Shown here: piece after piece, positions 34,722 through 52,360 of the stretch
Layout of the letters: every line of letters starts with the position of its first letter
Position numbering within the stretch: the stretch's first letter is position 1
Source of the DNA: a virus
DNA: 64,000 nucleotides
IMG/VR virus record: IMGVR_UViG_3300028800_000071
Span: 1-64,000 of that record
Direction: 5' to 3' (one strand)
Translations under genes and position numbers: made by a program
Notes under the pieces: generated by a model
Seen by the model: only the letters and a program-made list of their open reading frames with translations
Databases searched by the model: none
Told to the model about the DNA's origin: nothing

Positions 34722-35180
34722 GTGGCTGGCCTTCCGCAGACGACGAGTAACCCGTTGGCGGCGGTGGAGGTCCTTTTGCCCTACGGCGGCGACTATTCAC
34801 TAACGTCAACCGGCGATCTGCAACTCGTCAAAGACCAACCCGGCAATCCGGCCGCCACGACGCAGCGCATCATCTTCTTGCTGCTCACCAATCCCGGCGA
34901 CGATCTCTTTAACCTCGATTACGGCGCCGGCTGCCGCGCGACCGTTGGCCGACCGAACGTTATGGCGAACGTCGATGCCATCCGGCGCACGATCTCAAGC
35001 GCTCTTGCCAACGACCCGTTCGTCGCGGTGTCGCCGGGACCGACGATCGGCATAACGCTTTCGCCGGATAATCAGAGCGCCATTATTGCGATCTCGTTCT
35101 TTTCGGTGATCGGCCAATACGTATCGTTGCCCGATATATCTCTTTCGCCGAATAGCATCCAAATCGGAGCGGCAGCGTGA
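34722..35180 (+). CDS. Baseplate wedge protein (GPW/gp25-like)
   Basis: 152 residues. It carries the gp25 features TQRIIFLLLTNPGDDLFNLD followed by YGAG, and a second helix with DAIRRTISSALANDPF. It initiates sheath assembly on the baseplate. GTG start, then a 4-bp overlap with the gpJ gene. Confidence 0.85.
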   Translation: MAGLPQTTSNPLAAVEVLLPYGGDYSLTSTGDLQLVKDQPGNPAATTQRIIFLLLTNPGDDLFNLDYGAGCRATVGRPNVMANVDAIRRTISSALANDPFVAVSPGPTIGITLSPDNQSAIIAISFFSVIGQYVSLPDISLSPNSIQIGAAA

Positions 35181-36382
35181 GCATTCAGAAGTACGGCCTC
35201 CAAGATCTCATCCAACTCATGCTGACGGCGTATGCCGCCAAAGCAAAACAGGAAGCCGACGTCGGCACGGGCTCGCAGTTCGGCCCCATGTATCGCGCGA
35301 TGGCGCTCGCCGAGCAGCTGCTCCAAAACGAAAACGTTTACGTCGAGACCATCCTGCGCCTCGCGGCGATTCAAGATCCTCTGCCGGACGGCACGCCAAA
35401 CCCCGACGTGGATTCATTCGTCAACCCGTTCAACTTCTTTCGCAACGGACCGGGCTATGCGGTCGGCGGCGTCACGGTTTCGATTCCCGCCTCGCTGCCA
35501 ACCGATAAGACGATTCCGGTCGGCTATCTGTTTGGTGCCAATGCCGGCCCGACGTACACCGTCGCGGCTAACGGCCCCGGCTACAACTCCGGCGCGGGCG
35601 GTTACGTCATCCCGGCCGGTCAAACCAGCGTCATCGCGTACGTGCAATGCAACGTGTCGGGGTCGCAAGGCAACGCGCTGCCGAACACGATCACGCAGGT
35701 GCTTTCGGGGCCGAACGGATCGCCTCCCGATCCGACGCTCGCGATCAGCAACGCTTTATTGCTCACCGGCGGCGTCGATTCCGAAGTTGGCCAGCCGCTA
35801 AAGACGCGCTTCGCGCAGTATATTGCCGGCGGCGGCGAAGGCACGCCGACGAGCATCATGGCGGCCGTCGGCCAATCAATGACGGGGATCACGTACAGTT
35901 ACGGCGACTTCGTGATGGGCACCGAAGTGTCGAACGTCTGGACCTTTACGCCGAACACCGACGGATGGTTTACGGTCTGCGTCGATATCATGGGCGCGCC
36001 GGGAACGATCACGCAGGACCAACTCAATACGATCGCCGCGCTGATTCTCAACGATTATCGCGCCGGCGGCATCCATTACGCCGTCGCACCGCCGACGCCG
36101 CTCGACGTGGCTGGTGCCGGTACGGTCGTGCTCGTGCCTGGTGCCGATCCCGGCATCGTCGTGCCGGCGGTCAATGCCGCCTTCATCACGTTCGTCAACA
36201 ACCTCGGGCTCGATCCGCTCGGCGGTCCGATGATCTGCTCGATCATGGCGGCGTACATTGCGCTCTCGCAAGTCCCCGGCGTGCTGCGAATCGACAATCT
36301 CACGCTCAACAGCGGCAACGCCGATATCACCGCCGACTTCGGACAAATCCTGCGGGCCGGCACACCCGGCTTCGCCGCGTAA
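35177..36382 (+). CDS. Baseplate J-like protein
   Basis: 401 residues. The order gp25-like then gpJ, and the sequences AGPTYTVAANGPGYNSGAGG, TGGVDSEVGQPLKTRFAQYI and AVGQSMTGITYSYGDFV, identify the gpJ family of the baseplate wedge periphery. It connects hub to fibres. Confidence 0.85.
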   Translation: MSIQKYGLQDLIQLMLTAYAAKAKQEADVGTGSQFGPMYRAMALAEQLLQNENVYVETILRLAAIQDPLPDGTPNPDVDSFVNPFNFFRNGPGYAVGGVTVSIPASLPTDKTIPVGYLFGANAGPTYTVAANGPGYNSGAGGYVIPAGQTSVIAYVQCNVSGSQGNALPNTITQVLSGPNGSPPDPTLAISNALLLTGGVDSEVGQPLKTRFAQYIAGGGEGTPTSIMAAVGQSMTGITYSYGDFVMGTEVSNVWTFTPNTDGWFTVCVDIMGAPGTITQDQLNTIAALILNDYRAGGIHYAVAPPTPLDVAGAGTVVLVPGADPGIVVPAVNAAFITFVNNLGLDPLGGPMICSIMAAYIALSQVPGVLRIDNLTLNSGNADITADFGQILRAGTPGFAA

Positions 36383-36394
36383 AGGAGAACCTCG

Positions 36395-39046
36395 ATGCTG
36401 CGATTGCTCAAGGCGATCGGACCGGTCGTCGTGTGCGCCGCATTCTTCGCCATGCCGCACGTCGCACGCGCGAACCAAAGCGCGGCGATTACGTACTGCG
36501 CACCGCCGGTCATATTCACGCAAGGCCAAACGATCAACGCCGACCCGTTTAATCAAAACTTCGGCACCGCCTCGACGTGCCCGGCACAGTATGGCGATAT
36601 GTTTAGCGACGGGCCGTTCTACGACCCGACCGTGCCTTTCAGCGGCTCGTCCTTCAACTTCACGATCCCCGCCAATACGTGGGTTGCGCTCGGAGCTCGC
36701 GTGCCGACCAGCGCGTCGGCGCTCGTGGCACCAGCAAGCGCGACGAGCTATTGGTGGCTCTCGCGCACCGGCCTCTGGACGTGTACGCTCGACACCGGCC
36801 CGCCGACGAATGCGTGCCCCGGCTTCAATCTTCCCGATACGACCTACGTTTCCGAATACACCATTGCGGCCAACGGCAGCGGCATCACGGCGATTACGCT
36901 CCCGACGATCGCCGGAATCAAGTTCAACGGCACCGTCGCGCTCACGAGCTTCCCGTCGGGATCTTGCTTGCAAACCACGACAGGCGGCGTCCTTACGGCG
37001 ACCGGCCTGCCGTGCGGCAGCGGCGGCAGCGGCATCGCGAGCGTTACGGGCAGCGGCAATATCAACGCCGTCACGGTCTCGGGCGCCGTCATGGTAAGCG
37101 AAGCGAGCTCGCCGACCTGGACCGGCACGCCGACGACGGCGAGCGCCACGCAGGCCGGTTCGTTCAACTTCGGCAGCGATGGCGCGGCCTCGCTCGCGCG
37201 CACCGGCGCGAGCGCCTTCGCGTTCACGGCGGTCGGCCCGGCAACGCTCTCGGTGCCCGGCGGCGTACTGAGCGGCTCGTCGATCTACGGACCCACCTCC
37301 GCTTTCCTCAACGGCGGCCTCACAGCGAGCGCCGTGACCGATTCCGGGCTCTCGGTCGGCCAATGCGTCCAGACGACGACAGGCGGCCTTCTGGCCACCA
37401 CGGGCGCAGCCTGCGCGGGGCTCGGGAACGTGCTCTCGGTGGCGGCCGGCGGCAGCGGCAACGTGACGTGCTCGCCCACGACCGGCAACGTGATCTGCGA
37501 TACGGTCAATAACCCAACGTTTTCGGGCGCCGTCGTGGCCTCGTCGTTCACCGGCTCGGGCGCCGGCCTCACGTCGGGCACGGTGCCGAACGTCGCGCTC
37601 GTAACGCCTGCGGTCACGAGCGTCACCGGGACTTCGCCGATCGCCAGCAGCGGCGGCACGACCCCGGCGATCTCGATCGCGAGCAACCCCGCGCTCTCAG
37701 GCACCGTAACGGGCACGTCGTTCCGCGCCACCGCGGCGATCGTCGCCGGGTCGGCCTCGGCCTTCTTGCCCTCCAATAACGATCTCTCGGCCTCAGAAAC
37801 CACGACCTGCGGCGCGATCTACCTCGGCGGCTCGAGCGATAAGGGCAAACTCGACTACGGCTGCACGAGCGGATCGACGTTCACGTTTGGCACGAATACG
37901 ACCGTCGGCGGCACGCTCGCCGCGACGACGCTCAAAGGCACGACCCTTACCTCGGGCAACTGTGTGCAAGCGACGACCGGCGGCGTTCTGATCACGACCA
38001 GCAGCGCGTGCGGCTCGGCAACCTCCGTGACGTCCGTGGTCGGCACGTCGCCCGTCGGCGTCACGACTTCGGTTGGCGTTGCGACCGTAACGTGTACGAC
38101 GTGCCTCACCGGCTTGACGGCCGGCTCGAATATCTCCGTCGGTAGCGGCACGACGCCATCGGTTGCAGTCGCCTCGTCGCCCACGTTCTCGGGACAGATC
38201 GGCGCGGACGGCAACGCAGCGCCTGCTGCGGGCATTGCGCTCGGCGCGACGACGACGCCGGCAACGATCACCTCTGGCGTAAGTCTGTCGGCAGCGTTCG
38301 CCTTCAAAGATATCTCGGCGAATTGCGGCACGGGATTCATCGAGTTCGTCAAAGGCGCCTCAACGGTGATCTCGCGCATTGATTGCACCGGCAACTATCT
38401 CATGGGATCGTCATCGTACGGTACGAACGCCACGATCGCAGGTTCCTTGAGCGCAGGCACGACGATCTCGGGCGGCAACATTCAAGATAGCGGCTTGGGA
38501 TCGACCGTCACGCCGATCTGCGGAAACAATGCGGCAGCGATCGCGCCGTGCGGCCAACTGACGCCTATGTTTGCGACGACCGGCAACGCAACGAAAGCCA
38601 GCGGCACGTCGGCCAATACGTTGCAGCAACTCGGCGCGTCGGCCCCGTCGTTGACGCTCGGCACAAGCGCCGGCCCCAACGGGCAATGGCTCGTCAAGGC
38701 GCATCTGCTCATTCGTGGCGCATCGGGTTCGACTAGCGAATATCTGTACGGTTGCCTTTCGAATACGATTAGCGGCGGATCAATCACGCCTCAGCAGAAT
38801 TCCGCCGACGAGATCGGCACGACGTGTTGGGCAACGCCGGGAACGGGCTCCGTTCTCGCCGGCACCGTCGGCTTCGGTCAAACGTCGTCGGCCGGCAATC
38901 AGCAATACGGGTTAGACGCGACCGCCGAGGCGATCTTCCTCGCACCGAATGGAGCAACGATCACGATCTATCCGTGGATCGGCGCATCGACCAACGCGAG
39001 CGTGAACGTGAGTGGAGCGCTCTCGGTCGAGGCTGATCCCTACTAA
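36395..39046 (+). CDS. Large fibre-like protein with a Sec signal peptide, 883 aa
   Basis: Starts MLRLLKAIGPVVVCAAFFAM with a predicted cleavage after HVARA, a Sec signal peptide, although it lies between gpJ and gpI-like genes. The body is Ser/Thr/Gly-rich with at least three copies of a Cys-bounded unit (SCLQTTTGGVLTATGLPCG, QCVQTTTGGLLATTGAACAG, NCVQATTGGVLITTSSACG), plus beta-helix-like stretches and a C-terminal lectin-like end. It resembles trimeric tail fibres. The signal peptide and paired Cys suggest passage through the periplasm, which is unusual for a virion protein. GGAGA precedes the start. Confidence 0.65.
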   Translation: MLRLLKAIGPVVVCAAFFAMPHVARANQSAAITYCAPPVIFTQGQTINADPFNQNFGTASTCPAQYGDMFSDGPFYDPTVPFSGSSFNFTIPANTWVALGARVPTSASALVAPASATSYWWLSRTGLWTCTLDTGPPTNACPGFNLPDTTYVSEYTIAANGSGITAITLPTIAGIKFNGTVALTSFPSGSCLQTTTGGVLTATGLPCGSGGSGIASVTGSGNINAVTVSGAVMVSEASSPTWTGTPTTASATQAGSFNFGSDGAASLARTGASAFAFTAVGPATLSVPGGVLSGSSIYGPTSAFLNGGLTASAVTDSGLSVGQCVQTTTGGLLATTGAACAGLGNVLSVAAGGSGNVTCSPTTGNVICDTVNNPTFSGAVVASSFTGSGAGLTSGTVPNVALVTPAVTSVTGTSPIASSGGTTPAISIASNPALSGTVTGTSFRATAAIVAGSASAFLPSNNDLSASETTTCGAIYLGGSSDKGKLDYGCTSGSTFTFGTNTTVGGTLAATTLKGTTLTSGNCVQATTGGVLITTSSACGSATSVTSVVGTSPVGVTTSVGVATVTCTTCLTGLTAGSNISVGSGTTPSVAVASSPTFSGQIGADGNAAPAAGIALGATTTPATITSGVSLSAAFAFKDISANCGTGFIEFVKGASTVISRIDCTGNYLMGSSSYGTNATIAGSLSAGTTISGGNIQDSGLGSTVTPICGNNAAAIAPCGQLTPMFATTGNATKASGTSANTLQQLGASAPSLTLGTSAGPNGQWLVKAHLLIRGASGSTSEYLYGCLSNTISGGSITPQQNSADEIGTTCWATPGTGSVLAGTVGFGQTSSAGNQQYGLDATAEAIFLAPNGATITIYPWIGASTNASVNVSGALSVEADPY

Positions 39047-40206
39047 TGACGATCGGAACGTCGCAACTTGGCGGCGGCACCTTTGGTGGTGGCGGTATCT
39101 TTGGCGGCACCGCTGCGCAACTGCTCGCATTCCTGGACGAAACGGGCTCCAATCCGTTACCGGCCGGGATCTACGTGCAAATATACGCCGGGTCGATCGA
39201 CGGGCTGCTCGGTGCGCCGCCGATCGCCGCTGGCTGGACGCAGCCAGGCGGGCTTTGCAATGTTCCCGTACAGCCCGGCAATCTGATCACGTGCGTCTTT
39301 TCATTGTCGTCGCAAGCGCCCCCGAATCCCGTAGAGATTACGCCCGACGGGAACGGTCCGGTTTACACCGTGACGGTGGCACCCTACCGATCTCCGTCGC
39401 TGTCGGACAGCGGATACGCGGCGCTGCTTACTTCGAAACTGCCCAGAGGGTGGTTTAGCGGCGCGGCATTAGCCGATGAACCAGGCGACGGTTCCCCGAG
39501 CGGCATTGCGTACGCGATCGCCTACGCGATCGGTGCGGCGCTTGCGGCGCTTGATCAAGGACAGACGCAGGTCAACCTTGGTCGAGCGCGTCTTGGTCCG
39601 AGCGTCGGCGCCGATATCGACAGTTGGTCGACGGATATGGTCGGCCCGACGTTCGGCCGATATCCTCAAGAATCTGATGCGCTGTTTATCTCGCGCAATA
39701 TGCTCATGGTTTCGCGGCCGCGCTGCTCAATCAACGCGTTGCAAAAGTTCGTGACGCAGTTCTATGCGTCGATCTTGGCAGGTTGGAACGTAACGGGCTC
39801 CGAAGCGCTCGGCTTCGATACGGCGGGCGGCTTCGAAGTATCGGGCGCATTCAATAATCCGCCGGCCCCATCCGTTCCTAAAAATCCGCCGCCCGTAACG
39901 GTGTGGGACGGCATGACGCAACCGGCTCTGGCTGCGGCGCTCGGCGTCACGCCGTTGCAGTTCGTCATTATGGTCGGCCTATTCAGTACGAGTCTCGTCG
40001 AACAACTCGGCTTCAACGTCGCTGGTGCCCTCGGTGGCGGCCCGCACGGCGCGTCGCCCGGCTCGGGCGGATTCAGTAATGAAGTCACAAACGACACGCT
40101 GCCAAGCCCGACGCGCCAGGCGCCAGACCCGCGACTCGGCACGATGATCAATCTCATCACCAAAGGCACCGGCACCGTACCCCTATATCTCATCGGTCAA
40201 CTCTGA
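39046..40206 (+). CDS. Tail protein I / DUF2612-like baseplate protein, 386 aa
   Basis: ATG overlaps the preceding TAA. The middle section (LPRGWFSGAALADEPGDGS, LGRARLGPSVGADIDSWSTD, ESDALFISRNMLM) follows the gpI-like plan that joins baseplate to fibre. The Gly-rich N-terminus (GGGTFGGGGIFGG) and C-terminus are extra. Confidence 0.65.
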   Translation: MTIGTSQLGGGTFGGGGIFGGTAAQLLAFLDETGSNPLPAGIYVQIYAGSIDGLLGAPPIAAGWTQPGGLCNVPVQPGNLITCVFSLSSQAPPNPVEITPDGNGPVYTVTVAPYRSPSLSDSGYAALLTSKLPRGWFSGAALADEPGDGSPSGIAYAIAYAIGAALAALDQGQTQVNLGRARLGPSVGADIDSWSTDMVGPTFGRYPQESDALFISRNMLMVSRPRCSINALQKFVTQFYASILAGWNVTGSEALGFDTAGGFEVSGAFNNPPAPSVPKNPPPVTVWDGMTQPALAAALGVTPLQFVIMVGLFSTSLVEQLGFNVAGALGGGPHGASPGSGGFSNEVTNDTLPSPTRQAPDPRLGTMINLITKGTGTVPLYLIGQL

Positions 40207-40216
40207 GGAGCTCAAC

Positions 40217-41560
40217 GTGAAGAAGTTTGCATCTGCGATCGCCGCGCTCGCGCTCGCGCTCTCGCCGTTCGTGGCGCAAGCGACGCAAGTCACCGTGCAG
40301 CCTGCGCCGACGGCGCGCGTCATGGTGTACGCCGGCCAAAACCCCGACACCAACGAAACCAACCTGATCCCGCGCTTTCAGCGGCTTGCCGACGGCACGA
40401 TGCTGCGCGATATTCTCTCGACGCTCGGCACGTCTGGCGCGTGGTCGAACATTGCGATTCGGCCAGGCTCGGGCCTCAACGTCACGATCAACCCGTATCC
40501 GAATACGTCGCAACTCGGCGCGGTCTATCAGATCGGTCAGAACGACGTGACGGCGCTGCCGCCGCCGCCAGGTCAATCTCCGAATCAGATCCCGGCAGAT
40601 TCGACCAATATCATCATTCAGGCAACGCAGAACGTGCAGAGCAATCCGCTCGGCCCGTTAAGCGCGCCTAGTGGCGCGGGCAACGGCATCTATTACATGG
40701 TCGAGGCGCAACTGAGTTCGATCGACACACAGAACCAATCCATGCTCTTTGTGTCGTCGAGCGGCATCACGAACTATCAGAACGTCAATACGCAACGCCA
40801 AGACATCATCACCTATAAGCTAAACCCGGGCGGGCCAGGCACGGCCGATTGCAGCACGACGTTCCCGACGCCGCCTGCGGTGGATAGCGGTTGGATTGAG
40901 ATCGGCTTGGTCTGCATCCCGCACGCCTTGACGCAGATCACCACGGCCAATATCGCCATGTTCCTCGGGACGAACTTCAACGGTTCGTCCTTTGCGCAAT
41001 TGAACTTCGGCGGCGCCTACGTAACGGGCGGTTGCCAAGGTACGGCGACCAACTGCGGCCCTTCGACGCTCTCCACGTCGCAGAACAGCGGGTGCGATCT
41101 CAATAACGAGCTCGGGTTCGTGATCAATAACAACGCGAATACGAATAACGGGAACCACGTGCTCGTGGCCGATCTGGCCGGCGATCTGGGCGTCTGCGGC
41201 AGCGAGCTCCATATCTTCAATCAGAACTCGAACTCGACGGCCGCCAAGATCATCGTCAATACGTCCGTCGATAAAGGCACGGCCACGGACGAAACGCTGT
41301 ATCCGGCCAATAACACCGCGACCTTGGTGACGAATTCCAACTGCGCCAACGCCACGATCTGCCAAAGCGCAGCGGAAAAGGATATCTGCGCTCAGTCCGG
41401 CGCGGCGTCAACGGCGATGATTACGCCGAATGGCGATTCCGCGATGGCGGTGACGAGCGCGCCCACGTCGGGGACCGGCGTACGTGTAGAGTTTTACAAC
41501 GTGAGCGGTAGCTCGATCTCGAGCCCGCACACGTTTAACTTTACCTATACGTGCTTCTGA
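40217..41560 (+). CDS. Exported Cys-rich protein, 447 aa
   Basis: Clear Sec signal peptide (MKKFASAIAALALALSPFVA, cleavage after QA). The mature part is Asn/Thr-rich, beta-type, with about 13 Cys, ending HTFNFTYTCF. It directly follows the gpI-like gene. It may be a fibre or adhesin-type component secreted before assembly, or a protein acting on the host envelope. Function unknown. GAGGAG precedes the GTG start. Confidence 0.65.
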   Translation: MKKFASAIAALALALSPFVAQATQVTVQPAPTARVMVYAGQNPDTNETNLIPRFQRLADGTMLRDILSTLGTSGAWSNIAIRPGSGLNVTINPYPNTSQLGAVYQIGQNDVTALPPPPGQSPNQIPADSTNIIIQATQNVQSNPLGPLSAPSGAGNGIYYMVEAQLSSIDTQNQSMLFVSSSGITNYQNVNTQRQDIITYKLNPGGPGTADCSTTFPTPPAVDSGWIEIGLVCIPHALTQITTANIAMFLGTNFNGSSFAQLNFGGAYVTGGCQGTATNCGPSTLSTSQNSGCDLNNELGFVINNNANTNNGNHVLVADLAGDLGVCGSELHIFNQNSNSTAAKIIVNTSVDKGTATDETLYPANNTATLVTNSNCANATICQSAAEKDICAQSGAASTAMITPNGDSAMAVTSAPTSGTGVRVEFYNVSGSSISSPHTFNFTYTCF

Positions 41561-41877
41561 GGTTCAAACGCGTCGATCATTCGCCGCGCCGATAGAACGA
41601 AGAAGCAGGCAGCGGCCAAGCCAAACTCGGGCGCCCATGAGGCGAGCACCACGCAGATCCCCGCCATCGCGGAGTTACGAATGACGCCGGTCAATCGCTC
41701 CGCGAGCTCGTAGAACGCGGCGTTCGGCTGCTCGATGATCGGAGTGACGTTGCGGAGATCCCGGGCCGGCAGCGCGTCGGCGAACTCGGGGTGCTCGATC
41801 GCGATCATCACCTGTACGTGAGGCGGAAGATCAAGGAAGTGGATGCTGCGCCGCATTTGAGGGGGCAAGTATAGCAC
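41545..41877 (-). CDS. Minus-strand membrane protein, 110 aa
   Basis: Fills the only large plus-strand gap between 41560 and 41880. The N-terminal half is soluble (HFLDLPPHVQVMIAIEHPEF); the C-terminal half has one or two membrane helices (AMAGICVVLASW, LAAACFFVLSA). GTG 41877 or ATG 41853 could start it. Its 3' end overlaps the plus-strand gene by 16 bp. A lone opposite-strand gene inside a late operon is typical of a moron. Confidence 0.5.
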   Translation of the reverse strand: MLYLPPQMRRSIHFLDLPPHVQVMIAIEHPEFADALPARDLRNVTPIIEQPNAAFYELAERLTGVIRNSAMAGICVVLASWAPEFGLAAACFFVLSARRMIDAFEPQKHV

Positions 41878-41879
41878 GA

Positions 41880-42140
41880 ATGACCCCGCAGGGCTATCGG
41901 AACCGGCTCGCGTGCATAGAGTGGCACGTGAACTTCTGGCTGCAATCGGGAACCGATTACGACCAATGCCAGCGTACCTTACACCACCTTCAAGAATGCC
42001 TCGACGCGGACTTCTACGGCGAAGCGCGCCCAGAGGCGCCCGATTCCATTACACTAGTATTAATTGACTATTTGGACCGGGAGTTTTCCGGCCCGACCGT
42101 CGAACGGGATGGTTGGGGAGCGCTCGTTTCGTTTGAATGA
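41880..42140 (+). CDS. Hypothetical protein, 86 aa
   Basis: Helical N-terminal part (RLACIEWHVNFWLQSGTDYD) and an acidic C-terminus. It starts 3 bp from the start of the opposite-strand gene, so divergent transcription is likely here. Function unknown. Confidence 0.6.
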   Translation: MTPQGYRNRLACIEWHVNFWLQSGTDYDQCQRTLHHLQECLDADFYGEARPEAPDSITLVLIDYLDREFSGPTVERDGWGALVSFE

Positions 42141-42191
42141 GGAGCGAGTTACCGAGGCGAACCCACAACGTCGTGCGCAAGGATTCTGACC

Positions 42192-42512
42192 GTGCCATCT
42201 TGGGAACGCGAGATCTCGGACTTGTGGGCGGCGTTATTCGTCCCCGCGAGCGCCGTCATCGGCACGATCGGCGTCATTCTGCTCGCCCTCACCCGCTTCA
42301 AGGACAAGCGGATGGAAGGGGCGCTCGAAGCGAGCACGACCTGGCGCGAGCTCGCACAAAGCCGCGAGGCCACCAATGTCGATCTCGAACGCAAGGCCGT
42401 GTCGAGAGATCGGTACATTCAGCGGCTCGAACGGCAAAACTCATTCCTTTGGGATCAACTTGCGCCCGAGAAGCGAGAGGAGGTTTCTCGCAAATGGAAC
42501 TTACGCGAATAG
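42192..42512 (+). CDS. Membrane protein with coiled coil, 106 aa (lysis candidate)
   Basis: GTG start. One transmembrane helix (FVPASAVIGTIGVILLALT) after a short N-terminus, then a charged coiled coil (TWRELAQSREATNVDLERK). This plan, one N-terminal anchor plus coiled coil, is shared by inner-membrane spanins and some holin-associated proteins. Being next to a multi-pass membrane protein and about 1.5 kb before the endolysin supports a lysis role. Confidence 0.55.
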   Translation: MPSWEREISDLWAALFVPASAVIGTIGVILLALTRFKDKRMEGALEASTTWRELAQSREATNVDLERKAVSRDRYIQRLERQNSFLWDQLAPEKREEVSRKWNLRE

Positions 42513-42519
42513 GTGCCGT

Positions 42520-42921
42520 ATGATTAACACGCTTCCGAACACCCTGTGGGCTCTCTCTGTTTGTAGCTTCATTGCGATCTATGCGATCGTGCTCGGCTTT
42601 GCGTGGGGGAAAATCAGCCGGCGGTTTTTGTTCCGCCGATTCGCCGATCACTATACGCAGTTCGACGTGACGTGCGTCGGCATCGGAACATTACTCACCC
42701 TCATTCTTTTTGAGTGGGGCGTTCGCGCGCCGTTCGTATTTTTCGTTTTCGGTCACGTGACGATCGGCGGGTGGTGGGTTCAAATCTGGATCGTCTGCTT
42801 CGCTGCCGGCACAATGTTTGGCTACAGTAAACGCAAGCGCGAGGACAACAACCTCCTCAACGACGGCGCCATTACGTTCTGCCCCCATCCTAACTGTCCA
42901 GCACTAAAAGGAGATCACTAG
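42520..42921 (+). CDS. Multi-pass membrane protein, 133 aa (holin candidate)
   Basis: ATG 42520 chosen because it follows the previous stop by 7 bp and starts with a hydrophobic helix (LWALSVCSFIAIYAIVLGF). Two or three further helices follow, with a Lys/Arg-rich C-terminus (YSKRKRED) and a terminal CPHPNCP. Size and topology fit a class I holin; unproven. Confidence 0.55.
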   Translation: MINTLPNTLWALSVCSFIAIYAIVLGFAWGKISRRFLFRRFADHYTQFDVTCVGIGTLLTLILFEWGVRAPFVFFVFGHVTIGGWWVQIWIVCFAAGTMFGYSKRKREDNNLLNDGAITFCPHPNCPALKGDH

Positions 42922-43301
42922 TGAAGCAAATCCTCGCCGTTGCGATGCTCATGCTCGCGGCGGCACCCGTGTCTGCGGCAACGCCGCCACCGAATGCCGC
43001 GCCGGCGAGCGCGCCAATCCAAAATGCACCGAACGGTGTCAAGCCAAGTCCGCAGCCGTTATGGGCGCTCGTGAAAACCGTGCAAGACAACGACGCCGCC
43101 GTAACGCGCGACTACAATCTTTTTGTCATGCACTATCAGACGTTCGGCGCCTCGGTCTATGCACCGTGGTGCGTCAACGCGGGCGGCGTCCTCACCGTGA
43201 AGCTCGCCAAAGCGTGGGCTGCATGGCCGGCAACCGTGTGGTGCCATAAGGACGATCCGAAAGGGCCAGGGCGTTCCGCCACGGCGCCGGTGGTCAAATG
43301 A
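42921..43301 (+). CDS. Secreted protein, 126 aa
   Basis: GTG start overlapping the previous stop. Signal peptide (MKQILAVAMLMLAAAPVSA), a Pro/Ala-rich linker, then a small domain with two Cys (WCVNAGG, WCHKDD) that could form a disulphide. It lies in the lysis region, coupled to the next gene. A periplasmic role is inferred from the signal only. Confidence 0.6.
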   Translation: MKQILAVAMLMLAAAPVSAATPPPNAAPASAPIQNAPNGVKPSPQPLWALVKTVQDNDAAVTRDYNLFVMHYQTFGASVYAPWCVNAGGVLTVKLAKAWAAWPATVWCHKDDPKGPGRSATAPVVK

Positions 43302-44029
43302 TCGCCACCCATCATTGGTCCGGCTCGCGCGCCGTTCGCGGCCGCAACTATCATATCGAGAACGCGCGTACGGGCATCATCGACGACGCCTATCGCCATC
43401 TGCTGCGCGCCGCATGGATCACCGACGACGGCGCCAAGTCGGTAGACTTCCATAAACTCAAATCGCTGTTCATCGTCTACAAGAACGATTCGCTCACGGA
43501 AACGACCGAGTTCGGGACCTGGGATCTCAATAGCGATCCGCGCAACGGCACGCCGAATATCGAGATCGCCTCGCTCTGTATGCCGGGCGGCGCGACGGAC
43601 TTCGAGGGCGTCGAACCATTCACGATCGCGCACGCATGGGTTCACGCCTACGAAACCGCGGCGATCTGCCTGCTCAAAGGTCAAGACCCGCAGGAGTTCT
43701 TCAACGCAAACGTCGCGCCGCAACTGCAAAACGGACCGATCTTCGTTTTTAGTACGCACGGCGAGCGTGCGATTCAGACCAAGAACTACAACGTGCCTGG
43801 CGCCGGCGCATCGTCGGAAGCCGTGTCTGAGGAATATGGCTACTTCTTCGGCAGCGGTGATTCTGATTCGCGCGCCGATCTATTCTGCCTCGACGGCGCG
43901 TGGTACAACGGCAAAGTCACCGAGGACCAATGCCGATCGAGCGCGGCAGCGATCCGCCATCACGCGCTCATGATCATCCAGCACGGGCTCGTGAAAGACT
44001 TCTGGGGGCTCGACGGCCCCGAGAGCTAA
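43298..44029 (+). CDS. Hypothetical protein, 243 aa; possible envelope hydrolase
   Basis: ATG overlaps the previous stop. THHWSGSRAVRG at the N-terminus and GTPNIEIASLCMPGG in the centre recall the His and IGIEI patterns of amidase-2 enzymes, and AHAWVHAYE adds a His-rich helix. The match is weak and the metal ligands are not all identifiable. Its position between a secreted protein and a transglycosylase favours an envelope role. No export signal. Confidence 0.45.
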   Translation: MIATHHWSGSRAVRGRNYHIENARTGIIDDAYRHLLRAAWITDDGAKSVDFHKLKSLFIVYKNDSLTETTEFGTWDLNSDPRNGTPNIEIASLCMPGGATDFEGVEPFTIAHAWVHAYETAAICLLKGQDPQEFFNANVAPQLQNGPIFVFSTHGERAIQTKNYNVPGAGASSEAVSEEYGYFFGSGDSDSRADLFCLDGAWYNGKVTEDQCRSSAAAIRHHALMIIQHGLVKDFWGLDGPES

Positions 44030-44036
44030 AGCGCAA

Positions 44037-44067
44037 CGAGGGCGAGCAATCGCCCTCGCTTCTTTCC
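44037..44067 (+). terminator. Hairpin terminator before the endolysin gene
   Basis: CGAGGGCGA pairs with TCGCCCTCG (44037-44058) around a GCAA tetraloop, followed by CTTCTTT. It starts 8 bp after a stop codon. It could terminate, or partly attenuate, transcription into the endolysin gene. Confidence 0.7.
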
Positions 44068-44078
44068 CCGAAGGTGTC

Positions 44079-44891
44079 ATGGACAATCACGTCGTCGATA
44101 TCTGCCTCGCGATCTTCGCTTTGTCGATGGTCGCGCTTGCCGTTATTCCGCACCCCGAAGGTACGCCGATCCCATCGGCGCCGCTCACGAAGCCGCTCTC
44201 AAAGACGGCCGCGGTCGTGCTCAAATACAATAACGAGCATCCATTCTTCAGTAAGGCGCCCGTGTGGACCGAACCGGCGCCCGGCGTAACGATTCACAAG
44301 ATCCCGCCGAGCACGGCGCAAGAAGAAGCCGACGTCGCCGAAGCCGCGAGCGTGCGCGAGAAGTATCCGCTCACGATGATCTTCGCTGCGCTCGGCGTCG
44401 AGAGCGTGCTCGATCCGCTTTGCGAAAACCACAACGCCGCGCCGGGCGAAAGCAACGAAGGCAATAAGTTCGGGCCGGCCGGTTGGGATATGGGGCTTGG
44501 ACAGTTCAAACTCGGAATTCTGGCCAAGGCGCTCGGCATCACGCTCGCGCAGGCACAGGAGCTCGCGTTCACGATCAAATGGGCGATCGACTATCACGTC
44601 GCCGTGATGAAGAAGGAAGTCGCCTGGGCCAATACGGTCATTGCGCAAAACCAAGGCAACTCGAACGTCGATTATCGCTTTCGCGATCCGTATCTACTCG
44701 CGACGTGCTCGTACAACTACGGCCGCAACGGCGTGCTCGAACAGTATTATTACAAAGGCACGTTTCCCGACGGCGGCAAGAACCCCGATGGTACTCCGCG
44801 CAAGAATCACGGCGCGTCGGTCATGAGTGACGAAGCCTACTTTGCCAAGCAACTCGGCGTAACGTCGATCTTCGCCTATCTCAAGGCGTAG
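44079..44891 (+). CDS. Transglycosylase-like endolysin with N-terminal anchor, 270 aa
   Basis: Cleaves peptidoglycan. The catalytic Glu lies in AALGVESVLDPL, followed by GWDMGLGQFKLGIL (GLxQF motif) and YNYGRNGV, the order of SLT/lysozyme-fold enzymes. The N-terminus has a hydrophobic helix (CLAIFALSMVALAVIP) that could act as a signal-anchor-release segment, so export may use the Sec system. Start ATG 44079 has GAAGGTG upstream. No separate cell-wall-binding domain. Confidence 0.75.
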   Translation: MDNHVVDICLAIFALSMVALAVIPHPEGTPIPSAPLTKPLSKTAAVVLKYNNEHPFFSKAPVWTEPAPGVTIHKIPPSTAQEEADVAEAASVREKYPLTMIFAALGVESVLDPLCENHNAAPGESNEGNKFGPAGWDMGLGQFKLGILAKALGITLAQAQELAFTIKWAIDYHVAVMKKEVAWANTVIAQNQGNSNVDYRFRDPYLLATCSYNYGRNGVLEQYYYKGTFPDGGKNPDGTPRKNHGASVMSDEAYFAKQLGVTSIFAYLKA

Positions 44892-44903
44892 GAGGATCAT
44901 TGC

Positions 44904-45059
44904 ATGGATTCCGATTCTGGCGGTGGCGCAAAAGGGTCCGTCGCCGCTTCAGACAGCCTCGATGCCGTCGTGATTCACAAAGACGGCAGCACGACCCAAA
45001 CTCAGCTAACGGGCGTTAAAAAAATCATCGCCTGGTTCAAAGGATGGTTCACGTCATGA
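44904..45059 (+). CDS. 51-residue protein with amphipathic C-terminus
   Basis: Excellent ribosome site (GGAGG, 44890-44895). The N-terminal half is Ser/Gly/Asp-rich and soluble; the C-terminus GVKKIIAWFKGWFTS is a short basic amphipathic helix with Trp and Phe, like membrane-active peptides. The stop overlaps the lipoprotein start. A link to lysis is plausible from position between endolysin and lipoprotein. Confidence 0.5.
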   Translation: MDSDSGGGAKGSVAASDSLDAVVIHKDGSTTQTQLTGVKKIIAWFKGWFTS

Positions 45060-45991
45060 AAAAACTGCTCGGTGCAGTTCTGCTCACGGCGCTCGCGCTC
45101 GCAGGCTGCTCTCACGGAACAACGCATCACCCGGGCCTCGCGCCGGGAAAGATGCGTGCGCACAGTTCGCTCGTTCACAAGGTTGACCTTAAGGCCGGCA
45201 AGCCGCAAGAGCACGCCGTAATCGATCTGCGCAAACACCAGCCGACGGTATTCCTCGGTAGCGGCGTCAACTTCGGCCATATCATGGCCTATCACTATCG
45301 TCACCATCGTCTGATCGGCGTTCACGATCTCGGGTTCGGGACCGTGACGAACGTCGGCGTAATGGCCATGGCCAACGACTTTGCGTGGGCCGGCCCGTCG
45401 GGTGCGCCGATCAATACGCTCGCGCTCTGCAAGTTCATGGCGACAGGTACGGGCACAACCGCCTCGGCCTCAACGGATATCGCGTTGCAGACCGCCGACG
45501 GTGTTGCCTCAGTCACCGGCACGCAGTCGCTCGTGAGCGCGGCCAACTCCCAAGCCTATAAGGTCGTCGGAACCCAAAACTATACGGGCACCGAGGCCGT
45601 CACGGAATGGGGACTCTTTGCGAACGGCACGCTTTCGGCGAGCACAGGCACGCCGTTTACCGCCGGATCGGCGACGAGCGGAACCGTAACAGGCACACCG
45701 CTTACGGCATCGTCGACGACGGCTCAAGGCGAGCAACAGTTCATCTTCCAAGATACGACCAAATCGCCGAAGATCTACGGCTTGGTGACGAGCAACACCA
45801 CGTCGGTCGTGACCGTTCCGGCGTGGTACAAATCCACCGACGGCACCGCTGCCGGCACAACGCCGGCCAACGCCGATGCGTTGACGATTCTCCCGGTGAT
45901 GCTCGACCATATCGTCTTTTCGGCGATCAACGTCATCAATGGCGACTCGATTCAGTTTACGTTCACGTTGACGTTGCCTTCGGGCTCGTAA
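45056..45991 (+). CDS. Lipoprotein, 311 aa
   Basis: Starts MKKLLGAVLLTALALAGCSH, a lipoprotein signal with the lipobox LALAGC, Cys18 being the anchor. ATG 45056 is chosen over the GTG four codons upstream because it overlaps the preceding stop. The mature part has a His-rich region (KHQPTVFLGS, HYRHHRLIG) and then a beta-rich domain with tandem Thr/Ser/Gly segments, like a fibre tip. The domain is shared in style with the repeat protein that follows. Function unknown. Confidence 0.65.
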   Translation: MKKLLGAVLLTALALAGCSHGTTHHPGLAPGKMRAHSSLVHKVDLKAGKPQEHAVIDLRKHQPTVFLGSGVNFGHIMAYHYRHHRLIGVHDLGFGTVTNVGVMAMANDFAWAGPSGAPINTLALCKFMATGTGTTASASTDIALQTADGVASVTGTQSLVSAANSQAYKVVGTQNYTGTEAVTEWGLFANGTLSASTGTPFTAGSATSGTVTGTPLTASSTTAQGEQQFIFQDTTKSPKIYGLVTSNTTSVVTVPAWYKSTDGTAAGTTPANADALTILPVMLDHIVFSAINVINGDSIQFTFTLTLPSGS

Positions 45992-46015: not shown

Positions 46016-49000
46016 ATGGCGATCTCGTTCGTCCAAGCCGCTCAAGGCGCGGGGTTCGGCGTCGTTCTCGGTGCGGCTCCCGTGAAAGGCAACCTCTTAC
46101 TCGCCGTTGCGGTCAATAACGGCTCGACGCCGACAGCCAATACGGGCTGGACGAGCATCGACACCCTCAACCTCACGCAAGACGGCATTTCGCTCTATAA
46201 GATCGCTGGTGCGGCCGAACTCTCGACGCAGACGCCGATCGCCGGCACGTCGAGCAACGTTTCGGTCTACGAGTTCCACGCCGATCGCGGCTTTGCGGCC
46301 AATCCGGTCGATGACCATTCCGTGCGCCAAGGCGCACCGGCTACGCCGCCGACGTGCGTTTCTAACGGCGTAAACCCGACCAAGCCGATCAACGGAATGC
46401 TGGCGGTGTTTTACTCTACGTCGAGCGCCGATACGGCGCCGACGGCTGTTTCGGGCATGACCGTGCAACTCACGTTGAGCGGCGGCGCGACCGGCAACGG
46501 CGTCGGCTGTTATCAGATCGGCGTCAACGGCGAACACGTCACAAAAACAGCGACGTGGACCGGCTCAACGAGCGCATCATCGTGCGCCTTTATCATCGTC
46601 TTTTACGAGCAGACGGAAGTCACGCTCGTGCAAGCCGCGACGGCCGTCGGCACCGGCGTCACGTTCGGATCTGCGCCGACGCAAGGCAATCTGCTCGTCG
46701 CCGTCTGCTTCAATAGCGGCACGCCGGCGCTCGGCACAGGCTGGACGAATATCGACAATCAGGCGAGTTCGCCCAATAGTCGATCTATGTATAAGATCGC
46801 CGGGGCCGGCGAATCGACGACACAAAGTCCGACAAGTACGGCGACGAGTACGCTCATGGTCGCCGAGTTCAACGCCGTGAGCGGACCATTTACGGCAGCG
46901 AATCTCGACGTACATGGCGTGACGCGCGTTGCGACGGCAAATCCACCGAGCGTCACGTCCGGTGCTCTTACGCCATCGAAGGTCAACGACTTCGCCATCG
47001 TTGTCGCGTGCGATGCCGGTACGGCCGACGCTGCGCCGACGGCGATCACCGGCATGGTCACGCTCGTTGATATGCCAGGCACCGGCGGCAACGTCGGTAT
47101 CGGCTTTGCGGCGTGGACGGTCAATACGGGCACGGGTTCGTTTACGAAAACCGTCACGTGGGGTAGCGGCACAACGTCGGCGAGCGCCGTTCACGTCATG
47201 ATCTTTACGGTGCCGGGCTATACTTCAACGCCGTCGGGATCTGTGACGGGCGCGGGGGCCGCCAATCGCGCCGATAAGGCGGTGCGCACCGGCAGCATCA
47301 CGGGAGCCAGCGCGCTCTCGCGGGCGATCGCTCATGGTCTGACGGCCTCGATCACGGCCGTGAGCTCCGCGCTCCGATTCGTCGCAAAGATATTGCCCGG
47401 CGCGTCGATGACGCCGACCGGCACGGCGACAAAGCAGGCGCAACTGCCGGTTGCAGGCAGCGTCACGGGTGCAAGCTCGTTCGTGCGCGCAACCTTTGCA
47501 CAACTCGCTGGAAGCGAAACGCCGGCCGGAACGTTCGTGCGTTTCATTCAGCGCGTGCTCACGACGGGCTCGATCACGGGTGCCGGCGCCGCTTCAAAGC
47601 AGACGCAGGTGCCGGTGGCCGGGTCCGTCACGGGCTCGACTTCGATGCTGCACGCCATCGGCGCGCTACTCAGCGGCAGCGTCACGGGCGCGACCGGATT
47701 CGTTCGCTCGACGTTCCGTAAACTCACCGGCAGCGAGACCCCCGCCGGCGCGGCTACGCGTGCGATCGCGCGCGCCTTTACTGCGGCGAGCATCACGGCA
47801 AGCTCGGCTCTGGCCACCGGCAAAGCCTTCGTGCGATCCTTGACGAGTTCGATCACGGGCACGACCGGCTTCGTTCGCTCGACGTTCCGCAAGCTCACCG
47901 GCAGCGAAACGCCAGCCGGCGCGGCTGCGCGTGCGATCGCGCGCGCGTTCACGGCAGCGAGCATTACAGCCACGTCGGCGCTGGCCACCAGCAAGTCTTT
48001 CCTCCGATCATTCACGGGTTCGATCACGGGCTCGAGTTCGATGCTACACGCCATCGGTGCGCTTCTCAGCGGCAGCGTCACGGGCACGAGCTCGATGAAC
48101 CGCTCGATCGGCGCGAAGCTCACCGGAAGCATCACGGATGCCGGGACGTTCATCCGATCGACCGTCGCGAAACTTACGGGCAGCGAAACTCCCGCCGGTG
48201 TCGTCGCGCGCGCGATCGCCCGCACCTTCGCCGCGGCGAGCATCACGGCGAGCTCGGCTCTGGCCACCGGCAAGGCGTTCGTTCGATCGTTCACCGGCTC
48301 GATCACCCCGGCCGGCTCGATCAATCGGTTCACGACGGCGCTGATCTCGGGCAGCGAGGCCGCTACGTCGTCGCTCAACCGCTTCACGGCGCGTCTTGAG
48401 GCCGGGAGCATTACCGGGGCCGGCACGGCTCACAAATCGACCGGAACGGTCGAAAGCGGCAGCATCACGGATGCCGGGGCGATCGGCAAGCAGACGAAGG
48501 TGCCCGTGGCGGGCAGCGTCACGAGCTCGGGAACGCTCAGGCGCTCGATCTTCGCCTTGCTCGCGGCCAGCATCACGGCGGCCAGCGCGATCCGGCGCGC
48601 GTCGACCAGGGCGCTCGTCGCCCAGGTTACGCCGCAGGGCGGGCTCGCCCGGGCGATCGGCGCGGCGCTCGCGAGTGCCAGCATTACGGCACAGTCGCTG
48701 CTTACGTCCAATCGTGCCATCATCCGCAACTTCACGGCGTCGATCGCGCCGAGCGGGACGATCGGCAAAGCCGTCAGCGCGCTACTGAGCGGCAACGTGG
48801 CGCCGGCGACACACCTCCTTCGCTCGACGGTCGTACAGTTCGGCGGCCAGATCACCGCAACGGCCGGCATCGTCCGTACGACGGTGCTCAATATCGCCGG
48901 CAGCATCGCGGCCGCTGGCACCATTGCTCGTGGCCGTATCAAGAACTTCACCGGCTCAATCACCGGGCAAGGCGTGCTCGCCGACCGCAAGGCGATCAAC

Positions 49001-49300
49001 GTCATCTTCAACGCCGTGCTTGCGCCGCAGGGCACGATACGTCGGTCGATCCGCAAGGCGTTCGCGGCCGTCATTGCGGCCGTCGGGTCGCTTCGCAATC
49101 TGTTCTATCACGCGCCGCCGGCCATCGTGCTCGATATTGCGATCATCGCGCCGACGGAGATCAGCGCCTCGATTCTCGCGCCGACGGTGATCGGCGCACC
49201 GATTCTCGCGCCGACGACAATCAGCGCACCGATTCTCGCGCCGACGATGCTTGAGCTCGATATTCCCGGCGCCATCATTCTGTCGGTTTCGGGGGACTAA
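46016..49300 (+). CDS. Giant repeat protein with fibre-like architecture, 1094 aa
   Basis: Three parts. Residues 1-400 hold two similar beta domains (FVQAAQGAGFGVVLGAAP and LVQAATAVGTGVTFGSAPTQ, each followed by GNLLxAV). Residues about 405-1020 are tandem repeats of roughly 20 residues built on GSITGxSxxxRxIxxxLx. The end has four 11-residue copies of APTxIxAxILA. Such Gly-Ser-Ile-Thr repeats are known from phage fibres and other surface proteins. It has no signal peptide. Probably a long tail fibre or decoration. Confidence 0.65.
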   Translation: MAISFVQAAQGAGFGVVLGAAPVKGNLLLAVAVNNGSTPTANTGWTSIDTLNLTQDGISLYKIAGAAELSTQTPIAGTSSNVSVYEFHADRGFAANPVDDHSVRQGAPATPPTCVSNGVNPTKPINGMLAVFYSTSSADTAPTAVSGMTVQLTLSGGATGNGVGCYQIGVNGEHVTKTATWTGSTSASSCAFIIVFYEQTEVTLVQAATAVGTGVTFGSAPTQGNLLVAVCFNSGTPALGTGWTNIDNQASSPNSRSMYKIAGAGESTTQSPTSTATSTLMVAEFNAVSGPFTAANLDVHGVTRVATANPPSVTSGALTPSKVNDFAIVVACDAGTADAAPTAITGMVTLVDMPGTGGNVGIGFAAWTVNTGTGSFTKTVTWGSGTTSASAVHVMIFTVPGYTSTPSGSVTGAGAANRADKAVRTGSITGASALSRAIAHGLTASITAVSSALRFVAKILPGASMTPTGTATKQAQLPVAGSVTGASSFVRATFAQLAGSETPAGTFVRFIQRVLTTGSITGAGAASKQTQVPVAGSVTGSTSMLHAIGALLSGSVTGATGFVRSTFRKLTGSETPAGAATRAIARAFTAASITASSALATGKAFVRSLTSSITGTTGFVRSTFRKLTGSETPAGAAARAIARAFTAASITATSALATSKSFLRSFTGSITGSSSMLHAIGALLSGSVTGTSSMNRSIGAKLTGSITDAGTFIRSTVAKLTGSETPAGVVARAIARTFAAASITASSALATGKAFVRSFTGSITPAGSINRFTTALISGSEAATSSLNRFTARLEAGSITGAGTAHKSTGTVESGSITDAGAIGKQTKVPVAGSVTSSGTLRRSIFALLAASITAASAIRRASTRALVAQVTPQGGLARAIGAALASASITAQSLLTSNRAIIRNFTASIAPSGTIGKAVSALLSGNVAPATHLLRSTVVQFGGQITATAGIVRTTVLNIAGSIAAAGTIARGRIKNFTGSITGQGVLADRKAINVIFNAVLAPQGTIRRSIRKAFAAVIAAVGSLRNLFYHAPPAIVLDIAIIAPTEISASILAPTVIGAPILAPTTISAPILAPTMLELDIPGAIILSVSGD
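47230..49080 (+). repeat. Tandem about 60-bp repeat array in the fibre-like gene
   Basis: Roughly 30 imperfect copies encoding [L/F]xGSITGxxxxxRxxxx-type units of about 20 residues, alternating GSxTG and GSETPAG versions. Longer higher-order blocks recur (GFVRSTFRKLTGSETPAGAA occurs twice), showing recent duplication and making the array prone to recombination and misassembly. Confidence 0.8.
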
Positions 49301-49633
49301 ATGAATAGCGACCAGCAGCCGGTCATCATTCCGCAAAAGACGATCGGCCGAACGATCAAAGTCAATACCAACGGCGAAGGCTACGTAATCACTTCGGGCC
49401 TCACGGCCGTCCTGATCTTCCGCCAAGTGAGCGGCACGGGCGTTCGCAACGAAAAACAACTCACGTGCGCGATCGCCGCCGACGGCCTGTCGGTATCCTA
49501 TACGACGGTCGGCGGCGAGTTCGACGCGATCCCCGGTCTGTGCGATGCGCAGGTCAAAGTCTTTGCCTCTGGCGTGCTCGACTACAGCTACGTCATGCCA
49601 CGCCTCGTCAACATTCAGCCGCCTTTAGGATGA
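49301..49633 (+). CDS. Small beta-type tail protein, 110 aa
   Basis: ATG directly after the repeat-gene stop. IKVNTNGEGYVITSGLTAVL and CDAQVKVFASGVLDYSYVM suggest a small beta-sandwich of the BppU-like or fibre-accessory type. Function unknown. Confidence 0.5.
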   Translation: MNSDQQPVIIPQKTIGRTIKVNTNGEGYVITSGLTAVLIFRQVSGTGVRNEKQLTCAIAADGLSVSYTTVGGEFDAIPGLCDAQVKVFASGVLDYSYVMPRLVNIQPPLG

Positions 49634-50567: not shown

Positions 50568-51140
50568 ATGACAACCGCAAAGCGGACCCTCAACGGTCTG
50601 CGCATCGAAACCAAGAACCTTGCCGATCTCAAGGCGGCGCCCTACAACCCGCGCACGATCTCGCAAGAAGCGCTCAACGGGCTTGCGAAAAGCCTCGAAC
50701 GATTCGGCATCGTCGAACCGATCATCTTCAACGAACGTACCGGGCACGTCGTCGGCGGCCACCAGCGGCTCAAGGTCCTGGAGCATCAAAAGAAGCAGCA
50801 GACCGACGTGATCGTCGTCGATCTTGAGCTCAAGGAAGAAAAGGCGCTCAACGTCGCGCTCAACAGCGAGCATATTCAGGGCGAGTTCGACGACGAAAAA
50901 CTCGAGGCGCTGCTCAAAGAGATTCACGTGAGCGACAAAGAGCTATTCGACGGCCTGCGCTTCGAGGAGTTCGGCTTCAACATTGAAGCGCCGAATATCG
51001 ACGACGTGGTAGGCACGCCGAACATGGCCTTCGCCTCGAAGTTCGAGTGTATCGTCACGTGCAAAGACGAAGCCGAGCAGCGCGATCTCTACGAACGCCT
51101 GCAAGCCGAGGGCTACAAGGTCAAGGTTCTGCAACTGTGA
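50568..51140 (+). CDS. ParB-like nuclease-fold protein, 190 aa
   Basis: The ParB/sulfiredoxin fold is shown by LKAAPYNPRTISQEALNGLA, IVEPIIFN and the GGHQR motif (residues 63-67). Phage members of this family are commonly paired with DNA-modifying enzymes; they may target or nick DNA or act as CTP-type switches. It is coupled by a 4-bp overlap (GTGA) to the ABC-ATPase/GNAT gene. The C-terminal half has no recognised domain. Confidence 0.8.
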   Translation: MTTAKRTLNGLRIETKNLADLKAAPYNPRTISQEALNGLAKSLERFGIVEPIIFNERTGHVVGGHQRLKVLEHQKKQQTDVIVVDLELKEEKALNVALNSEHIQGEFDDEKLEALLKEIHVSDKELFDGLRFEEFGFNIEAPNIDDVVGTPNMAFASKFECIVTCKDEAEQRDLYERLQAEGYKVKVLQL

Positions 51141-52360
51141 TCGTCGAGCTCGAACTCAAATCGCCCGTATCGGATACGTTTCGCGTGCAGACGCTCGCGT
51201 CGCGCATGGATTACGAGCCTTCGGAGAGCACGACGTTTCGGCTCACGGCCGAGCTCCCGTCGCTCGACGAGAAGTGGAACGTCGGCCTGATCGTCGGACC
51301 GTCGGGCAGCGGCAAGACGCGGCTGCTCGAAAAGGCCTACCCGTCGTTCACAGACGCCGCCAAGTATCATTGGAAAGCCAAGTCGTTCATCGACGATCTG
51401 GCCGAGAAGGCGAGCGTCGAACAGATCTCGCTCGCGCTCACGTCAGCCGGCTTATCGTCCGTGCCGACGTGGATGCTGCCGTATCATCGCCTTTCCAACG
51501 GTCAACAGCAACGCGCTGCGATGACGCGCGCTCTGCTCGAAACCGATGAGATCGCCTTTGACGAGTTTTCGTCGATGCTCGATCGTGTGGTTGCTCGTAC
51601 GACGGCGATGGCCGTCGCGAAAACGATCCGTCGTGCCAACAAGCGGCTCGTTGTCGCCACCTGTCACTATGATATCGCTGAGTGGTTGGAAGCCGATTGG
51701 GTTTTCGATACTGCGACGGCGACGTTGGCAAGGGGGAAACTTCAGCGACCAAAGCTCGACATTACAGTCCATCCTGCACCGCGTTCTCTCTGGCCCCTCT
51801 TTGCGCCGTATCATTATATGAATCCGCGCCAAGCGCCGGCGGCGCGCTGCTTCATCGCCACGCTCAACGTCAAAGGCGAGGAGGCGATCTGCGGGTGGGT
51901 CAGCTTCGTGCCGGTGGCCGGCTACAAACACTATTGGCGCGGCCATCGCGCCGTGGTGCTGCCCGACTTTCAGGGGATCGGGATCGGCGCGCGGTTTCCG
52001 AGCGCGTGCTTCGATATTCTGAGCAAGGAAGATCCCAAGCGTCGTATCAGTACGATCACGGGTTCGATCGCGCTCAACGTTGCGAAGCAGCGGCAGAAGT
52101 GGTGGATTCTCACGCGCGCCCCGTCACGCATCACGGGTCGTGACGTGGGGACGTTGAAAGCGACGGCGCACCGATCGTTCGAACGTTTGACGACGACGTG
52201 GGTATTCGACGCGCCGAAGTACGACGCGAAAGCGAACGGCGAAGTGCCGCTTGATTACGACGCGTCTGCGTCTGATCAGACGAAGCGCGAAAGCGCGAAA
52301 GCGCAGACGCGAGGGCGCGTCAAGGGGGCGTCTGTGACGCGTTCAAAAGACGACGGGTGA
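51137..52360 (+). CDS. ABC-type ATPase fused to a GNAT acyltransferase domain, 407 aa
   Basis: GTG 51137 overlaps the ParB-like stop. Residues about 1-200 are an ABC ATPase: Walker A GPSGSGKT (54-61), signature LSNGQQQR (119-126), Walker B IAFDE (139-143), H-loop His177. Residues about 220-330 are GNAT-like, with CGWVSFVPVAGYKHYWRGHR leading to VVLPDFQGIGIGARF, the acetyl-CoA loop. The tail is low complexity and rich in charged residues. No membrane parts, so it is not a transporter. The GNAT part resembles the acyltransferase class that includes the Mu Mom DNA-modification protein; that role is inference. See findings. Confidence 0.8.
   Translation: MIVELELKSPVSDTFRVQTLASRMDYEPSESTTFRLTAELPSLDEKWNVGLIVGPSGSGKTRLLEKAYPSFTDAAKYHWKAKSFIDDLAEKASVEQISLALTSAGLSSVPTWMLPYHRLSNGQQQRAAMTRALLETDEIAFDEFSSMLDRVVARTTAMAVAKTIRRANKRLVVATCHYDIAEWLEADWVFDTATATLARGKLQRPKLDITVHPAPRSLWPLFAPYHYMNPRQAPAARCFIATLNVKGEEAICGWVSFVPVAGYKHYWRGHRAVVLPDFQGIGIGARFPSACFDILSKEDPKRRISTITGSIALNVAKQRQKWWILTRAPSRITGRDVGTLKATAHRSFERLTTTWVFDAPKYDAKANGEVPLDYDASASDQTKRESAKAQTRGRVKGASVTRSKDDG

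Follow-up and report, generated by a model that had tools for sequence, protein, structure and literature searches.

The tail-fibre and lysis region of the uncultured tailed phage studied here encodes several proteins marked for export, including two in fibre positions and a lipoprotein whose body belongs to a tail-cassette family. The window that was analysed is a stretch of 64,000 nucleotides, bases 1-64000 of the 80,795-base IMG/VR virus record IMGVR_UViG_3300028800_000071 (G000). By the usual view, tailed-phage virions are built entirely in the cytoplasm. Since the products of these tail genes bear export signals, their site of action is probably the cell surface or beyond it, and they are probably not ordinary cytoplasm-built parts of the particle. 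We read proteins A, B and C and the product of a fifth gene (each putatively disulfide-folded), together with the putatively lipid-anchored protein D, as late-made, exported proteins that act at the envelope or outside it, most likely in receptor masking, and we consider this reading about an even call.

The window carries a myophage-type gene run of terminase, scaffold, capsid, sheath, tape measure, hub, a W-like (gp25) gene and baseplate J. Downstream of J follow, in order, A, the 386 aa gene 39046, B, small membrane genes, C, genes 43298 and 44079, D and E (Table 1). The description of the first neighbour as gpJ-like in the earlier note is borne out by PHROG 6 and Baseplate_J matches, while its gpI-like label for 39046 holds as a matter of position, to which one uncharacterised homologue can be added. 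A and B flank this gpI-position gene directly downstream of J, which is where fibres normally sit.

Table 1 Features of the exported set and its surroundings; positions are those of the window unless marked as record.
Feature	Position	Strand	Basis or remarks
Baseplate J-like wedge protein	35177..36382	+	PHROG 6, E 4e-24; Pfam Baseplate_J; 37% identical homologue in G025
A, 883 aa, repetitive fibre-like body, 22 mature Cys	36395..39046	+	Sec signal peptide 1-26; C-terminal domain (about 725-883) common to exported G024 protein
Signal peptide of A	36395..36472	+	Score 3.9, cleavage after residue 26
386 aa tail protein, gpI position, signal-less	39046..40206	+	31% identical homologue directly behind J in G025
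B, 447 aa, 10 mature Cys	40217..41560	+	Sec signal peptide 1-22; G025 homologue
Signal peptide of B	40217..40282	+	Sec/lipobox rule
106 aa, one TM and charged tail, lysis-region candidate	42192..42512	+	Hydropathy
Multi-TM holin-like protein, about 133 aa; ORF opens at 42376	42520..42921	+	Hydropathy
C, 126 aa, Pro-rich, 2 Cys, no lipobox, in lysis region	42921..43301	+	Sec signal peptide 1-19
Candidate intrinsic terminator closing the A-I-B-C run	44037..44058	+	9 bp stem, top of scan
D, 311 aa, lipobox LALAG/C18	45056..45991	+	Conserved tail-region domain at residues about 91-311; HMM match to 'tail collar fiber' gene of MW202796
E, 1094 aa repeat protein, signal-less, downstream partner of D	46016..49300	+	33-42% identical to a G024 protein encoded downstream of D
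110 aa protein behind E	49301..49633	+	No family match; similar-sized gene, same place, in G024, G036, MW202796
Pro/Thr-linker exported protein, 402 aa, 12 mature Cys	Record 69872-71080 (L113:5872-7080), outside window		Domain common to exported G024 and G025 proteins and a partial L121 ORF

Export signals were called with a home-made Sec/lipobox rule applied to 37 genes of the window, and exactly four were flagged, with scores of 3.4-4.1: A, B, C and the lipoprotein D. The signals on the first three, the lipobox at 45056 and all four starts are as the earlier note had described them. Of shuffled N-termini, 0.17% reach a score of 3.5 and 0.39% one of 3.2. In a calibration with lambda, P2 and Mu, the rule flagged none of the virion proteins (head, tail or fibre) and detected Lom, Bor and Rz1; its false positives were the membrane proteins RexB, Rz, LysA and LysB. 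In control contigs of unrelated phages, retrieved through phrog_11143 (gene 51047), the rule flagged 7 of 521 genes of at least 120 aa. Gene 51047-52360 of the window itself belongs to PHROG 11143 (E 2e-81), which has no assigned function and occurs in many unrelated phage contigs.

Each of the four genes has its own ribosome-binding site (Shine-Dalgarno, SD). A starts at the ATG at 36395 behind AAAGGAG, with cleavage between MLRLLKAIGPVVVCAAFFAMPHVARA and NQS; B at the GTG at 40217 behind GAGGAG, with cleavage between MKKFASAIAALALALSPFVAQA and TQV; and C at the GTG at 42921 behind AAAGGAG, with cleavage between MKQILAVAMLMLAAAPVSA and ATP, its site being of the signal peptidase I type only. 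D starts at the ATG at 45056 behind AAAGGATGG, and MKKLLGAVLLTALALAG precedes C18. Start codons within or beyond the signals have a poor SD or none in all four genes. As counter-evidence to export, the earlier note had named a conserved start downstream of the signal in homologues. The relative of B aligns from residue 1, and A, C and D have no good downstream start; the point does apply in part to D, whose domain is kept without a lipobox in nearly all relatives.

Cysteine content gives a separate view of export, as exported DsbA-type substrates are generally recognised by a preference for even Cys numbers (PMC7678975). The 'many paired Cys' noted earlier for the two largest proteins were confirmed for A and B (counts in Table 1), and A also contains three loops of 17 residues each, of the form C(L/V)Q..TTGG.L......C, at 191, 324 and 523. 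Among Cys-containing signal-peptidase-I proteins of this phage and its relatives G024 and G025, the mature Cys count is even in 12/12 (p 2.4e-4), compared with 44/105 non-exported proteins. The parity tests are partly dependent; counted by family, about eight in our own grouping, they give p = 0.5^8 = 0.004. Median Cys density in the same three genomes is 2.6 per 100 aa for exported proteins and 1.1 for the others. A further relative, L123, was fetched after the first count, and all three of its exported proteins are even as well (8, 10 and 6 Cys), giving 15/15 complete signal-peptidase-I proteins in four phages. These even counts indicate that selection sees the exported proteins as oxidised, and hence outside the cytoplasm. 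Cys parity is silent on whether they later join particles.

Single-sequence IMG/VR searches with A, B and J found no relatives. Relatives were instead found through the C-terminal domain of D (20 loci) and the capsid (seven loci), and two are clear: G025 (capsid 71% and J 37% identical) and G024 (sheath 46-63%). The homologue of B in G025 is 35% identical, has a signal peptide of its own and lies in the same place behind the gpI-position gene. Two additional Cys-rich proteins of G025 (395 and 465 aa) bear signals, and its D has a lipobox. In G024, four consecutive genes bear signals (613, 143, 293 and 661 aa), and the 293 aa protein contains the C-terminal domain of A. The capsid search led to L123 (58%), where three proteins, of 393, 714 and 464 aa, bear signals. 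The exported genes of G024 and L123 adjoin portal or capsid genes, not J.

One exported family, with a signal peptide and a Pro/Thr-rich linker, occurs in the present phage, G024 and G025, and its C-terminal part in L121. The member in the present record lies beyond the window, and the exported set of this phage is therefore larger than four, with at least one further family. At record positions 66116-66496 (L113:2116-2496), a 126 aa protein with 2 Cys has a weaker signal-peptide score. Such exported genes are mostly absent from more distant contigs of the D family, with some beside D in G034 and G036. Among distantly related phages, signal-bearing genes lie beside D-family genes at L105:12853-15084 (743 aa, with a Pro/Thr linker) and L109:17683-18411 (242 aa), which suggests that the pattern is wider than this clade.

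The exported proteins have no matches in Pfam, PHROGs, NCBIfam or PDB sequence searches, and for A and B phage tblastn was likewise negative, which leaves both with no sequence match to known fibre families. No full-length homologue of A and no homologue of C was found, and a tail-attachment domain could be demonstrated in neither A nor B. The AlphaFold model of B has a pLDDT of 29, and PDB profile searches with B, the Pro/Thr-linker family and an L123 pair were uninformative. The members of this pair (L123:18338-20482 and the next gene, 464 aa) are related exported proteins, 40% identical, that look like TIM-barrel glycosidases by eye. Glycoside hydrolases were suspected among the exported proteins of the relatives and dropped, as Pfam, NCBIfam and PDB gave no support.

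D is a different case. Its domain (residues about 91-311, DLGSGLVTNVGV ... INVxNGDSIQFTY) is 40-74% identical across 13 aligned relatives. A lipobox precedes it only in the present phage and G025, with quite different N-terminal sequences; the G024 protein, 78% identical to D (74% over the alignment), begins without any signal. As the domain mostly lacks a lipobox in the family, the lipid anchor appears to be a lineage-specific addition, and from its sequence D looks like a tail-cassette protein turned into a lipoprotein in this lineage. The D-family profile matches a 121 aa 'tail collar fiber protein' gene, UOF82002.1, in MW202796 (E 2e-5); behind this gene come a repeat protein, a small gene and tail fibres. 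Judged by gene order, a repeat protein and a small gene come after D in the present phage, G024, G036 and MW202796; sequence homology of E holds for G024, with weaker repeat-region matches elsewhere. E, a candidate for an ordinary fibre, begins with a beta-rich N-terminus, behind which hydrophobic repeats of roughly 15 residues (SITGSSS...RSF) form a long array. The AlphaFold model of D is of medium to low confidence (pLDDT 54), and its structural matches are uncharacterised viral proteins only, none of them in the PDB. The only Cor match (PHROG 1119, E 0.28) falls on the signal peptide of the relative in G025.

The genomic setting bears on the timing of expression. The stop of A overlaps the next start (TAATG at 39044), which embeds A in the tail operon. 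A scan of the region turned up no sigma-70-like promoter, and the exported genes are interleaved with tail genes there and have no promoter matches of their own. The run from A to C would be closed by the candidate terminator of Table 1, the best hit of a scan in which terminator-like matches are near chance in total number. The absence of a promoter and the position of this candidate suggest that the exported genes are expressed late, with the tail genes. Between B and the lysis genes, the opposite strand holds a 110 aa ORF at 41545-41877 (-); its C-terminal segment is hydrophobic and its GC3 phage-like, and it could be a real antisense-oriented gene. The 270 aa product of 44079-44891 has an N-terminal TM without basic residues and ESVLDP...GLGQ motifs recalling lytic transglycosylase; with no family match, it is possibly an anchored (SAR-type) endolysin.

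These observations are consistent with the following sequence of events. A, B and C would be made late from the tail and lysis gene run, and the fifth protein from its gene elsewhere in the record; all four would leave via Sec, lose their signal peptides, and form disulfides in the periplasm or outside. D would be exported and lipid-anchored in a membrane. The exported fibre-like proteins, surface-bound or secreted, might then have the envelope or surface glycans as their target, on the dying cell and around it. Receptors would be masked or blocked in this way, and released progeny would not adsorb to debris or to already infected cells, with D serving as a membrane-tethered copy of a tail-cassette protein that fills the phage's own binding site. 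The fibre-like nature of A and the tail-cassette domain of D on a lipid anchor are the reasons why masking of the phage's own receptors is rated highest among possible roles. The earlier note had offered envelope remodelling, superinfection decoys or fibres added after export; export and oxidation outside the cytoplasm are upheld by conservation in relatives and by Cys parity, and any of the three roles may be the right one.

The placement of A between J and the gpI-position gene, and of B directly behind it, would also be expected of particle fibres. It is hardly credible that these are ordinary cytoplasmic fibres whose N-termini are merely signal-like or whose starts are annotated too early. 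Signal-like N-termini do arise by chance in 0.2-0.8% of shuffles, but the signals recur in at least four related phages and Cys counts are even, and a start annotated too early was rejected, as the good SD stands at the upstream start only. Alternatively, A and B could be particle fibres matured outside the cytoplasm, exported, oxidatively folded in the periplasm and attached to virions during or after lysis. The fibre-like repeats with Cys loops in A and the origin of the D body in a tail-cassette family agree with this as well. However, the missing tail-attachment domain, the exported genes that lie beside portal or capsid genes in G024 and L123, and the presence of signal-less fibre candidates (E, and a 469 aa gene of G025) make it unlikely; with such non-exported candidates retained, the phages need not depend on A and B alone for fibres. 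We know of no precedent in tailed phages for fibres that are exported and then mounted from outside, and A and B would be categorically new if they were virion parts. A fuller version, two-compartment assembly, in which Sec-exported, periplasm-folded receptor-binding fibres would be mounted at lysis and D would be a membrane-side tether or assembly platform, is in our judgement quite unlikely.

Two further explanations leave the particle aside. C, and perhaps D, might aid envelope disruption in the manner of spanins, since C is Pro-rich, exported and adjoins the TM genes 42192 and 42520, and Pro-rich regions are a feature of outer-membrane spanins, which are lipoproteins (PMC3556154). Yet C has no lipobox, D greatly exceeds a spanin in size and contains a domain of a tail-region family, and A and B are left unexplained; a lysis or envelope accessory is thus an improbable account. 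The exported genes could also be of the moron type, benefiting the host or manipulating the environment, for example as secreted glycan-active enzymes. Lambda has an exported moron, Lom, at the same location, and the exported proteins of the relatives include large ones, some of which contain the sort of Pro/Thr linker that is typical of secreted modular proteins. On the other hand, Pfam, NCBIfam and PDB searches detect no enzyme family, and the exported genes lie among tail genes without their own promoter matches. An integrase or resolvase was not found in the 80.8 kb record (possibly incomplete), which makes lysogenic conversion or benefit unlikely, and we consider this explanation doubtful. 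Receptor masking by late-made exported proteins is the reading that we prefer.

A clade with several conserved, export-tagged, disulfide-rich tail-region proteins would imply either a sizeable secreted arm of phage infection or a break with the cytoplasm-only rule. A signal peptide together with an even Cys number inside the structural region provides a genomic signature for finding such sets in other phages. In the open-access literature, we found no report of Sec signals on a set of tailed-phage fibre-region proteins. A close comparison is lambda Lom, a Sec-exported protein whose gene lies in the tail-fibre region, between J and the gene for the side tail fibre, and which was found by the same rule; Lom, however, is a single outer-membrane protein of 206 aa, whereas several larger Cys-rich proteins per genome are found here, with no sequence similarity shown. 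T5 Llp resembles D in being a phage lipoprotein whose gene adjoins receptor-binding genes, and it blocks the phage receptor (PMC9586334). Known exclusion lipoproteins, Llp among them, are small, and early expression is described for exclusion proteins (PMC9586334), whereas D sits among late genes, is unrelated to Llp, and at 311 aa carries a conserved tail-region domain behind its lipobox. Of the features of Llp/Cor-type proteins, D has the lipobox (LALAGC, with the same type in G025) and lacks small size and kinship to known members. The P2 tail module V-W-J-I-H shares with the present phage the order spike, W, J, gpI position and fibre positions, but no gene of the P2 module has a signal peptide, whereas both fibre-position genes bear one here. 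In the 'tail collar fiber' cassette of MW202796 (UOF82002.1), as here, a repeat protein and a small gene come after the conserved C-terminal domain, although most members of the family lack the lipobox present in this phage and G025. Single exported tail-region proteins (Lom, Llp) are already known, and what differs here is a conserved, multi-gene, disulfide-rich exported set in fibre positions, together with a lipidated tail-cassette protein.
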